Source of the DNA: a bacterium
GTDB taxonomy: Bacteria > Patescibacteriota > Patescibacteriia > Veblenbacterales > UBA10138
Length of the DNA stretch: 41,256 nt
Assembly: GCA_020057885.1 (NCBI GenBank)
Contig: JAGVEX010000013.1
Coordinates: 1-41,256, forward strand
Direction of reading: 5' to 3'
Made by a program: the position numbers and the translations under genes. Positions 25,514 through 28,743 of this stretch are shown piece by piece. Under the pieces are notes generated by a model. It was not told the DNA's origin, did not search any database, and saw only the letters and a list, made by a program, of their open reading frames with translations. Position 1 is the first letter of the stretch; every line of letters begins with the position of its first letter.

Positions 25514-27265
25514 TTATTTTTTATATTCAATCTCTTGTTTAAGTTCAGCCATAAATTTTTCTTTAGGCAAGCTACTAATTTCTTTTTGTCCGCGTTTGCG
25601 CACTGCCAAATTATTTGAAGCAATTTCTTTGTCGCCAATTACCAAAGAGTAGGGAATTTTTTCGCCTTCAGCTTTTCTAATCTTATTACCTATGGTTTCA
25701 TTAGCATCGTCTAGCTCCACGCGGAAACCGTGATCAAGAAATTCGGTTTTAAGTTTTTGGCAGTAGTCGTGATGCGTTGAGCCAACCGGCAAAAGCTTAA
25801 TTTGCACTGGCGCGAGCCAAGCGGGAAAAGCACCACCACATCTCTCGATTAAGAAGGCGATGGTTCTTTCAATCGCGCCGACTGAAGAACGGTGAATGAC
25901 AATTGGCTCTTCTTCGCGACCATCCGATGCAGTAAAGGCTAATTTGAATCTTTTTGGCATAACAAAATCATATTGTACCGTAAAGGCGGTATCTTCTTTG
26001 CCTAGAACATTCTTAATCTGAATATCAATTTTCGGGCCGTAGAAAGCCGCTTCGCCCGCCGCTTCATAATTTTCGACCGCGCGGTTTTTTAAGACATTCC
26101 TTAGAACTCCTTCGGCGTGTTCCCAAGCAGCATCATCTTTATAATACTTCTGATCATCGGTGCGATCGCCGAGTGAAAGGCGGTAGCGGTAATCTTTATT
26201 AGCTTTAAAGCCGAGTATGCCGGCAATATATTCGATCAAATCCAAAGCTCCGTTAATTTCTGCTTCGGCTTGGTCCGAGCGAGCAACAATATGGGCGTCA
26301 GCGAGGCAAAAACTACGTACTCGGAGCAAACCACTCAGTTCACCCGACTGTTCATAGCGGTAGAGCTTAGCTAGTTCGGCAATGCGCATGGGTAGTTGCC
26401 GATAGCTGCGCGGTTGGGATTTATATAATTCAAAATGATGCGGGCAGCTCATCGGCCTTAGCATAAATTCGTCCTCGTCAATCTTGATGGGCGCGTACAT
26501 GGAATCCTTATAATAAGGATAATGTCCAGAAGTTTTGTAGAGGTCGAGTTTGGCAATATCAGGGGTATAGATATGATGATAACCACGCCGGATTTCTTCA
26601 TCAACAATAAAACGTTCCAATTCGCGGCGGATAATCGAGCCTTTTTCTGTCCAGAGTGGTAAACCCTTACCGACCAATTCGGAAAAGACAAAAAGATCTA
26701 ATTCTTTGCCCAGTTTGCGGTGGTCTCTTTTTTTAGCTTCTTCTATCATTTTTAAATATTCGTCGAGTTCTTTTTTAGTATCAAAAGCCAGGCCGTAGAT
26801 ACGGGTGAGCATTTTATTATTTTCATCGCCGCGCCAATAAGCCCCAGCTATACGTTCCAATTTCCAGGAGTCGGCTTTGATATCTTTCATTTTTTCCACA
26901 TGGCCGCCACGGCACAGATCGCGGAACTGGCCAGATTGATAAATGGTTATTGGCGCGCCCTCGGTAGCTATACCGTTAATCAATTCATGTTTATATTCAT
27001 TGTTTTTAAATTCGGCTTTGGCTTCCTGAGGAGATAATTCAAAGCGTGCGAAAGTATTCCAGGTTTTTATAATTTCTTCCATTTTATTTTGAATTTTTGG
27101 CAAATCGCTTTCGGAAACCACTGTCGGAAATTCGAAATCATAATAAAAACCATTATCAACCGGGGGCCCTAGAGTTGGTTTAGCTTGAGGCCACATTTCC
27201 AGCACAGCAGCGGCTAAAAGATGAGATAAGGAGTGACGTTTTGCTTCGAGATTTGAAGTAGACAT
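25514..27265 (-). CDS. thrS: Threonyl-tRNA synthetase lacking the TGS domain
   Basis: The 583-aa enzyme begins almost directly with the editing domain ('AKRHSLSHLLAAAVLEMWP', zinc-type HxxxH; later 'LCRGGH'), so the roughly 60-residue N-terminal TGS domain of the 642-aa E. coli form is missing. The class II core ('KGSIIRRELERFI', 'MLRPMSCPHHFELYKSQPRSYRQLPMRIAEL', 'EPIVIHRSSVGAIERTIAFLIE') and C-terminal anticodon-binding domain ('QIKLLPVGSTHHDYCQKLKTEF') are intact. It charges tRNA-Thr and removes mischarged Ser. Expression is controlled by a T-box leader upstream. Confidence 0.96.
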   Translation of the reverse strand: MSTSNLEAKRHSLSHLLAAAVLEMWPQAKPTLGPPVDNGFYYDFEFPTVVSESDLPKIQNKMEEIIKTWNTFARFELSPQEAKAEFKNNEYKHELINGIATEGAPITIYQSGQFRDLCRGGHVEKMKDIKADSWKLERIAGAYWRGDENNKMLTRIYGLAFDTKKELDEYLKMIEEAKKRDHRKLGKELDLFVFSELVGKGLPLWTEKGSIIRRELERFIVDEEIRRGYHHIYTPDIAKLDLYKTSGHYPYYKDSMYAPIKIDEDEFMLRPMSCPHHFELYKSQPRSYRQLPMRIAELAKLYRYEQSGELSGLLRVRSFCLADAHIVARSDQAEAEINGALDLIEYIAGILGFKANKDYRYRLSLGDRTDDQKYYKDDAAWEHAEGVLRNVLKNRAVENYEAAGEAAFYGPKIDIQIKNVLGKEDTAFTVQYDFVMPKRFKLAFTASDGREEEPIVIHRSSVGAIERTIAFLIERCGGAFPAWLAPVQIKLLPVGSTHHDYCQKLKTEFLDHGFRVELDDANETIGNKIRKAEGEKIPYSLVIGDKEIASNNLAVRKRGQKEISSLPKEKFMAELKQEIEYKK

Positions 27266-27365: not shown

Positions 27366-27564
27366 AATAAAAAACCAAACGAATAAGTTTCGTTTGGGCC
27401 CCGTAAAGTTTTACGAACCACGGGGGGTTCCACCCAGATTTCCACCTTCGCGTAAAGCTAGGGCGGACACTCACGGATTGTTTGTACGTTTAGATCCGAT
27501 TGAGGTCGGGTGCCCCTCGAATTTGTTCGGGGCCTGACGGTTGGTAGCCGTCGCAATTACGTAC
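27366..27564 (-). promoter_or_regulatory. T-box riboswitch of thrS
   Basis: On the minus strand the antiterminator is exact: A1 TGGG, the 7-nt bulge TGGAACC, A2 CCCCGT, a 15-nt loop, ACGGGG, then CCCA closing A1. The competing terminator CCAAACGAA/TTCGTTTGG plus a T run uses the same CCCA strand. The bulge TGGA would pair with tRNA ending UCCA, which fits tRNA-Thr with a U discriminator as in some bacteria. The 5' part (GTACGT/ACGTAC enclosing GACGG/CCGTC, CCCCGA/TCGAGGGG and CCGA/TCGG) does not look like a classical Stem I. An ACC sits in the 7-nt loop CTACCAA and could be the specifier. Confidence 0.85.
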
Positions 27565-27570
27565 TGTTTA

Positions 27571-27599
27571 ATAATAATTTTTTATTAATCTTTAGTCAA
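27571..27599 (-). promoter_or_regulatory. Promoter of the thrS T-box leader
   Basis: Minus-strand TTGACT (27594-27599), 17 nt, TATTAT (27571-27576). It starts right after the stop of the preceding minus-strand gene. Confidence 0.8.
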
Positions 27600-27600
27600 A

Positions 27601-28743
27601 TTATTGTTTAGTCTGCAAAATAACATGGCTTTCTAAGGTTGGTACGGATTTTACCCAAAAAGGCGAGAGTTTTGTTTCCACATTTTTTACTCCAGGCATA
27701 TTGCTGAAGTAGTTTTTAACCTCAGCTGGCGTGCGGCCCAATAAATCTATTTTTTTAAACATCATTTCTAAGTTAGTAACAGTAACTTGTGCCAGGAATT
27801 TTAATTTTAGTGTGGCGCTTTTTAGATCGCTAGCCAAATCTCCTACACTTACTGCTAAACTTTGCTCTTCCAGAGTGAGAATTTTTCGCCCCAAGGTTTC
27901 ATCATTTTGTAATTTTGCCAAAGCTTTTTCACGCAGAGTCGTGGAATCATAAAACACAGCGGTTACCTTAATTGTTACAGTATAGTCAAAATTTGATTTG
28001 GCTGTGCCAGCGGGTACGGTTGATTCAGACTTGGGAGTTTCGGTAGTATAGGCCACGGTTAAAGTTTTTTTATCAGCCGGTAACTGCTCTCTTAATTTAG
28101 ATAAAATCTGAGGCACCAAAGCATCAGTTAAAGTTTTTTTAGCTTGCTCTAAATCCAACTCAGTAACTTTATTGCCAGGTTTTTCCGCGCGACGCATTGG
28201 CTCGCTAGATTCTGCATAAATTTTTTCCCTTAAACTAGCACGCAAGCCTGGGAGTGTAAATTTGGTGGCAGGAATAGCACTCGCTTCACCTGCCAGATCA
28301 GCTATTACAGGGGCGGTTACTTTGCCACCAGCTGGCACGGTAATTGTTTTTTGCAAACGGAACAAAATCCCCTGGGTGGAGAGTAAACGGGTAGTGGCAA
28401 TTAAAGATTGTCCGCTATTAGTATTATTTATCAAGGTAACCATGCCAGAGGCCTTATCTTCTTTTTCCCCAGCAGCGGAGGCGCTAAAATTTTTGGTTTG
28501 GCTAAGTTCAGTTTGCGAAATTATGCCCAGTATTCCATTGGCGCTGGCCGGATCACTGACATTTAGAACAGCCTCCATTACTTCGTTTGAGGGTTCGGTT
28601 TCAATGGTTACAACCGCTCGCGGCAGAGTGTAATAAAATATAAGCAATACTACTGCTATTACAGCAATAAAAAAACTCACCACAATGCGTTTCATAGAAG
28701 GTGTAGAGGTTTGCTGGCGAGGGGGTAAAGTTGGTCTTGCCAT
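27601..28743 (-). CDS. Membrane-anchored extracytoplasmic protein (CPR type, baseplate-J-like region)
   Basis: The 380-aa product has a short Pro/Thr-rich cytoplasmic tail, one membrane helix ('IVVSFFIAVIAVVLLIFYYTLP', residues 19-40) and a large outer part. The stretch 'ASGMVTLINNTNSGQSLIATTRLLSTQGILFRLQ', 'VTVPAGGKVTAPVIADLAGEASAIPATKFTLPGL' (slightly paraphrased at its start) resembles the region annotated as baseplate-J/gp47-like in many CPR proteins. The rest alternates beta and helical segments ('LGRTPAEVKNYFSNMPGVKNVETKLSPFW' near the end). Function unknown; a surface or secretion-linked role is a guess. A hairpin lies in its leader. Confidence 0.7.
   Translation of the reverse strand: MARPTLPPRQQTSTPSMKRIVVSFFIAVIAVVLLIFYYTLPRAVVTIETEPSNEVMEAVLNVSDPASANGILGIISQTELSQTKNFSASAAGEKEDKASGMVTLINNTNSGQSLIATTRLLSTQGILFRLQKTITVPAGGKVTAPVIADLAGEASAIPATKFTLPGLRASLREKIYAESSEPMRRAEKPGNKVTELDLEQAKKTLTDALVPQILSKLREQLPADKKTLTVAYTTETPKSESTVPAGTAKSNFDYTVTIKVTAVFYDSTTLREKALAKLQNDETLGRKILTLEEQSLAVSVGDLASDLKSATLKLKFLAQVTVTNLEMMFKKIDLLGRTPAEVKNYFSNMPGVKNVETKLSPFWVKSVPTLESHVILQTKQ

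Follow-up and report, generated by a model that had tools for sequence, protein, structure and literature searches.

The window, that is, the whole 41,256-nt stretch of DNA analysed, is one entire contig from an uncultured, ultra-small bacterium, whose genome comprises 952 kb on 21 contigs. A regulatory element lies on its minus strand at 27599-27366, upstream of thrS, and in 5' to 3' order the region reads promoter, P1, AAUUG, P2, P3, P4, CUAA, P1', GAGUG, Stem III, antiterminator, terminator, and thrS. A T-box with an antiterminator, a competing terminator, and a promoter had been claimed ahead of thrS in a sequence-only reading of this DNA; all were located, and TIGR00418 confirmed the gene. 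The features are as follows:

27571..27599, minus strand: sigma-70-type promoter, recognised by sequence; -35 TTGACT (27599-27594), 17-nt spacer, -10 TATTAT (27576-27571)
27559..27564, minus strand: P1 5' strand GUACGU, pairing with 27489-27484; covaries
27554..27558, minus strand: junction motif AAUUG
27535..27553, minus strand: P2 specifier hairpin with 6-nt arms and the 7-nt loop CUACCAA (27547-27541)
27543..27545, minus strand: specifier ACC, a Thr codon, complementary to anticodon GGU
27512..27533, minus strand: P3 hairpin GCCCC...GGGGC, from folding and recurrence in members
27496..27509, minus strand: P4 hairpin CCGA...UCGG, from folding and recurrence in members
27490..27493, minus strand: junction motif CUAA
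27484..27489, minus strand: P1 3' strand (P1') ACGUAC; covaries with the P1 5' strand
27439..27472, minus strand: GAGUG (RRRxG)-Stem III-AA, the purine-flanked Stem III of the discriminator, recognised by sequence
27395..27436, minus strand: antiterminator; A1 UGGG (27436-27433)/CCCA (27398-27395), bulge UGGAACC (27432-27426), A2 of 8 bp, -14.0 kcal/mol
27369..27397, minus strand: terminator CCAAACGAA/UUCGUUUGG followed by U6, sharing CCA with A1
25514..27265, minus strand: thrS, threonine--tRNA ligase, the regulated gene (TIGR00418, 665.6 bits, E 7.3e-200)

Folded alone, the 81-nt stretch from P1 to P4 adopts the cloverleaf as its minimum-energy structure (-26.6 kcal/mol). The folding energy of the 235-nt leader has a z of -3.2, with 0/200 shuffles as low, and its minimum-energy fold combines the cloverleaf, the A2 hairpin, and the terminator; this predicted fold matches the off state that would be expected without tRNA. 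P2 reads CGACGG-CUACCAA-CCGUCA in the window, and five of its six pairs form in this genome, the outermost being C-A and therefore not formed.

A protein search for thrS matched 92 of 95 genomes, and upstream DNA was read for 87 thrS loci. The GGTGGNACC motif occurred upstream in 42 of the 87, and the T-box motif was absent from the fetched DNA at 45 of these thrS loci of the class, so not all thrS genes need one. On inspection, the 42 loci consisted of 33 cloverleaf leaders, three with a long Stem I (L045, L057, L063), two with an ultrashort one (L050, L064), and four that were degenerate (L048) or cut off (L042, L053, L094), the last four being omitted from training. Shared by the 33 training leaders is a plan of a GAUUG-like motif, six-nt arms, a seven-nt ACC loop, two more hairpins, CUAA, and P1'. 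A covariance model, R1, was built from these 33 and applied with a cut-off of E<=0.01. In a sample of 380 genomes of the class it matched 124; in a sample of 379 from the phylum it matched 11, and two of those lie outside the class. The 33 training leaders and 94 non-training R1 matches together make up the 127 members referred to throughout.

Pairing in P1 and P2 was found in 88.6% of 429 cells in the 33 leaders, versus 49.4% when shuffled and 29.4-45.5% when slid, a count in which P1 pairing is inflated because the P1' register was placed where pairing was greatest, CUAA-like motifs earning a bonus, and was reset by hand at CTAA in seven leaders. For P2 alone the figure was 94.9%; 181 cells had changed on both sides, and 13 of the 13 P1/P2 pairs showed such changes. 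Among the 94 non-training matches, whose P2 pairs are favoured by the covariance model that found them, P1 pairs 1-5 held in 92, 91, 87, 79, and 69, and pairs 6-8 dropped to background (58, 52, and 49). P3 and P4 both formed in 104 of the 127 members under a strict rule, versus 51 expected from shuffles; the hairpins are conserved and their sequences are not, and RNAalifold recovered only P2 from a MAFFT alignment because MAFFT cannot align P3 and P4. The predicted P1 and P2 are thus supported by covariation, and P3 and P4 by recurrence above shuffles, which led us to reject the idea that the three hairpins are folding noise. A stem enclosing three short hairpins, the form first proposed for the Stem I region from the window's letters, is accordingly both the minimum-energy fold and a type conserved, together with the ACC loop, in the thrS leaders gathered from relatives. 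The junction motifs are similarly maintained, as GAUUG in 106/127 members and as CUAA in 116/127 (CCAA in eight), and the span from P1 to P1' is 55-102 nt. AATT or CAAT comes after CUAA in 83/127 members; a pseudoknot of AUUG with CAAU crossing P1 was considered and rejected, as it was not uniform on inspection.

The promoter bears directly on how much RNA can precede this domain. In the window the -10 box ends 12 nt before AAUUG, so the RNA is expected to start at about P1; with its end at 27601, the preceding ORF comes to within one base of the -35 box. The best promoter match scored at least 9 in 122 of the 126 members with enough upstream DNA, and in 113 of 126 the distance from the end of the best -10 box to the GAUUG motif was 9-20 nt. 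Because the promoter adjoins P1, the transcript should begin there; a classical Stem I concealed upstream was considered and rejected, since the preceding ORF and the promoter together leave no space for one.

The triplet ACC occupies the P2 loop in 126 of 127 members, and the lone exception (L206) looks like a misread register. However, the training leaders had been chosen by the GGTGGAACC motif plus an ACC[AG] loop, so their ACC and the A reflect selection. A search free of that selection used the pattern GATTG-N-CTAA-N-GGTGGNACC, which demands neither the hairpin nor ACC, and it gave 98 matches in 92 of the 380 class genomes. At least five of six P2 pairs formed in 76 of the 98, and ACC was present in 76/76, in agreement with its early assignment as a possible specifier in the loop CUACCAA; four or fewer formed in 21, of which 0/21 had ACC, and one further match had ACC with four pairs. 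No other codon was seen in a well-paired P2 among these 98 matches from 380 class genomes, and within this search the cloverleaf design belongs to threonine alone. The loop carries the tRNA anticodon-loop pattern Y-U-NNN-R-A: across the 127 members, position 1 is a pyrimidine in 121, position 2 is U in 98, position 6 is a purine in 126, and position 7 is A in 110. UACCA, which is complementary to positions 33-37 of tRNA-Thr(GGU), is found in 95/127.

The tRNA-Thr genes found in the window's own genome have the anticodons UGU, CGU, and GGU. All three have U73, as had been anticipated from the UGGA bulge, and tRNA-Thr(GGU) in particular, whose gene lacks an encoded CCA, has U73 and not A73. We read 36 distinct tRNAs from 30 fetched loci (the genome has 48 tRNA matches); U73 was present in only six, one Cys, two Gly, and three Thr, and among these six only tRNA-Thr(GGU) reads ACC by Watson-Crick pairs. 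The combination of ACC and UGGA therefore points to tRNA-Thr(GGU) as the ligand among the tRNAs read.

Downstream of the cloverleaf, the element has the usual parts of a T-box. Using the RRRxG-Stem III-AA motif as defined in the available text of PMC7583486, RRRxG and AA were found together in 105 of 126 members versus 6 of 126 with shuffled linkers, the best-scoring Stem III being used in this count. The window has the 7-nt UGGNACC bulge between A1 (4 bp) and A2, in the form UGGAACC; A1 and A2 of at least 3 bp each form in 118/123 members, and N is A in 121 of the 122 with a standard bulge. In the window this A matches U73, and UGGA is complementary to the tRNA-Thr 3' end, UCCA. Three further members have the variant UAGAUGGAACC in place of GGGUGGAACC. 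In L205, L209, and L223, A1 is CUAGA/UUCUAG-like rather than GGG/CCC (UAGAUGGAACC...UUCUAG), a compensated change of the antiterminator. A terminator-like hairpin with a U-run was found in 119/123 members and overlaps the antiterminator 3' strand in 105, where any overlap of the hairpin span was counted; the bases common to terminator and antiterminator number only three or four, less than in textbook T-boxes. One member, L207, has a cloverleaf before thrS and no T-box bulge within 260 nt, and is possibly a decayed copy.

At Rfam gathering thresholds, only a tRNA was detected in the window, and the Rfam T-box model, RF00230, did not match the window leader even at E=10, so there was no alignment to a classical Stem I. 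The gathering score of 93 was reached by 0 of 20 loci with leaders of non-training relatives; cloverleaf members touched by the model scored 24-51 bits, and its search of the relatives mostly recovered other T-boxes. Other T-boxes were found in the window's own genome, and the thrS one escapes RF00230. The suggestion of a shortened or divergent T-box, made from the window's letters, is supported by this silence and by conservation of the type in related genomes. Classical modules were likewise scarce among 126 thrS cloverleaf members: CGUUA and CCGUUA, as F-box, occurred in two and one, respectively, and GATGA at the place of the K-turn in none. S-turn-like AGTA(G)A and AGTA..GAA, as sequence matches only, occurred in 13 and 20. 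A long Stem I with an elbow-binding module was not found, the promoter adjoining P1 and P1-P1' spanning 55-102 nt. To our knowledge, glyQS-type T-boxes also have no Stem IIA/B F-box.

The available text of PMC7583486 describes transcriptional T-boxes as generally dependent on a long Stem I that carries an elbow module, and most translational T-boxes as having an intermediate or ultrashort Stem I. TBDB, as described in the sections of PMC7778990 consulted, rests on RF00230 and a class II model searched in Actinobacteria; our comparison with described T-boxes also draws on parts of PMC12452182, PMC10651847, PMC4810234, and PMC11665869. The cloverleaf leader resembles a classical long-Stem-I T-box (RF00230) in its UGGNACC discriminator, A1/A2, RRRxG-Stem III-AA, terminator, downstream aminoacyl-tRNA synthetase gene, and purine after the codon; it differs in having no long Stem I or room for an elbow module, no GATGA K-turn, and almost no F-box, and in that the 7-nt loop displaying its codon is closed into a hairpin, one arm of a four-way junction. 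With the class II ultrashort or intermediate forms, exemplified in the excerpts of PMC7583486 and PMC10651847 by actinobacterial ileS, it shares a Stem I without an elbow-binding module. However, the solved class II T-boxes in those excerpts keep a Stem II S-turn and a IIA/B pseudoknot and act on translation, whereas the cloverleaf has two other hairpins inside P1, followed by a terminator.

Other T-boxes of the class provide a nearer comparison. In the window's own genome, the valS leader (G000:C15:9436-9655; L002, L411) has an ultrashort Stem I with GUC in the loop, AGUAG, and CCCGUUA, and scores 30 bits to RF00230, below threshold. A second T-box of this genome (G000:C2:98291-98592; L001) has a canonical long Stem I and, at 114.3 bits, exceeds the RF00230 cut-off; an 82-aa ORF comes next, and no synthetase gene is evident directly downstream. 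Four valS T-boxes were found in 30 valS loci, all with AGTAG and an F-box match, and in the aligned valS L414 and aspS L394 leaders RF00230 skips about 70 Stem I positions. The aspS leaders L391 and L394 (around 1500-1620) have an ultrashort Stem I whose loop contains AAC, an Asn codon; the L394 loop, CUAACAG, is in the same register as CUACCAA, and the L391 bulge, UGGC, fits G73 of tRNA-Asn in the window's genome. Judging from these sequences, aspS with AAC may reflect control of a non-discriminating AspRS by tRNA-Asn. At L397 (1061-1233, minus strand), a glyS-like gene is preceded by an ultrashort Stem I with GGC in a hairpin loop and a UGGA bulge. The valS, aspS, and glyS ultrashort T-boxes resemble the thrS cloverleaf in having the codon in a hairpin loop, a K-turn-like 5' motif, and a short leader; the thrS cloverleaf differs from the valS and aspS leaders, which keep AGUAG and F-box-like CGUUA and in which P1 closes right after the specifier hairpin.

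Taken together, the element is very probably a T-box that switches thrS transcription in response to uncharged tRNA-Thr(GGU) and in which a compact decoding domain replaces Stem I and Stem II. Its discriminator marks it as a putative T-box; the decoding domain appears to fit neither class as described, and we found no description of it. RNA polymerase would start at P1, and the first 55-102 nt would fold into a four-way junction, P1-GAUUG-P2-P3-P4-CUAA-P1'. ACC in the P2 loop would then pair with the anticodon GGU, to which it is complementary, possibly through the five pairs UACCA/UGGUA, and the free UCCA end of an uncharged tRNA-Thr would pair with the complementary UGGA bulge, thereby, by analogy with known T-boxes, stabilising A1/A2. 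A1 takes CCCA, and the terminator needs its CCA; as these bases are common to both, uncharged tRNA would permit readthrough into thrS, and charged tRNA would leave the terminator free.

The decoding domain could represent a third structural class of T-box, in which a tRNA-like cloverleaf decodes, its first arm being a codon-carrying mimic of an anticodon arm, and the two 7-nt loops kiss as they do in pairs of tRNAs with complementary anticodons, through up to five pairs (UACCA/UGGUA); such a T-box would be transcriptional and lack an elbow clamp, K-turn, S-turn, and IIA/B pseudoknot. We consider this plausible but stop a little short of calling it probable. The principal rival is that the leader is a derived ultrashort-Stem-I T-box with ultrashort-type decoding, P2 being the specifier hairpin and P3 and P4 eroded remnants of Stem II and IIA/B that now sit within the base of Stem I. 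That GAUUG sits where the valS, aspS, and glyS leaders of the class, with their ultrashort Stem I and codon in a hairpin loop, have K-turn-like GUUUGA or AAUGAU is consistent with such a descent, as is one thrS leader (L064) with GAUGA..GGA around a GUACCGC hairpin. Yet the expected relics are rare in the thrS members (CCGUUA 1/126, CGUUA 2/126, GATGA at the K-turn place 0/126, AGTA(G)A 13/126), whereas 4/4 valS T-boxes have an F-box match and AGTAG, and P1 of the thrS cloverleaf closes after P4, not after P2; we regard this derivation as possible, although doubtful.

Two further explanations concern what the leader does. The E. coli thrS operator contains an anticodon-arm-like hairpin that binds ThrRS, resulting in feedback repression, and P2, also before thrS, is of about anticodon-arm size and has the loop signature; it might thus mimic the anticodon arm of tRNA-Thr and bind the enzyme. 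But the E. coli operator mimics the anticodon, and the cloverleaf displays a codon: the loop triplet is ACC, not a Thr anticodon, in 126/127 reads, and a full T-box discriminator and terminator come after P2, making this the least credible of the explanations weighed. Control of translation through a sequestered ribosome site, in place of transcription, is suggested by the fact that short Stem I is otherwise reported, in the text of PMC7583486 available, mainly for translational T-boxes. Nevertheless, a terminator-like hairpin and U-run are present in 119/123 members, and some 100 nt separate the end of the window's terminator from the start of thrS, so translational control is very improbable. 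If the transcriptional T-box reading is correct, it has some general consequence: T-boxes are assumed to depend on a long Stem I gripping the tRNA elbow or, where Stem I is short and control translational, on a Stem II S-turn as a brace for the codon-anticodon duplex, and a transcriptional T-box seemingly without both would offer a further way to read a whole tRNA in the brief interval before a terminator. Amino-acid-starvation control would also be placed on a key gene of CPR bacteria, whose regulation is little known.

Beyond what was initially noticed in the window, the type is widespread in the class, coexists with ultrashort and long Stem I T-boxes, and carries the anticodon-loop signature. 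The curated Rfam threshold misses this regulator across a large group of genomes. A wider collection of genome contigs was searched with a strict pattern containing ACCAA, yielding at least 112 stretches; among the matches listed, 106 have a well-paired P1/P2 and 105 have thrS within 3 kb downstream. Many of the listed stretches are titled only 'bacterium' or 'Patescibacteria group bacterium', and the taxa named among them include the CPR groups Falkow-, Buchanan-, Komeili-, Kerfeld-, Magasanik-, Uhr-, Kaiser-, Nomura-, Moran-, and Adlerbacteria, and others, which we take to belong to class ABY1 or Paceibacteria in GTDB terms. Two exceptions among the matches listed have titles naming non-CPR taxa, Saprospiraceae (L307) and Planctomycetota (L323); with 2/6 and 1/6 P2 pairs, respectively, and no thrS, they act as a control. 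We found no report of T-boxes in CPR in the openly licensed literature, which is no proof of absence in print.

By tblastn, thrS was present in the fetched DNA for 86 of the 94 non-training matches. The remaining eight, whose gene names rest on inspection of protein sequences by eye, were followed by dtd-like genes (three), a GNAT-like acetyltransferase, a MetK-like, and a nucleotidyltransferase-like gene (one each), and one unrecognised family, and one was cut off; some of the eight are operons that reach thrS further downstream. A D-aminoacyl-tRNA deacylase-like ORF (dtd) comes after the cloverleaf T-box in L180, L203, L218, and L190, with thrS next in L190 and in G092, an arrangement that from its gene order would be an operon of charging and proofreading. 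L184 has a cloverleaf T-box with ACC before a metK-like ORF, an unrelated gene. Two cloverleaf matches at G002:C24:20-101 and 940-1024 (L153, L214) share a strand and are separated by about 0.9 kb that includes an ORF; the first of these lies at a contig end, and the sequence of that end runs on into the thrS-bearing contig (L042).
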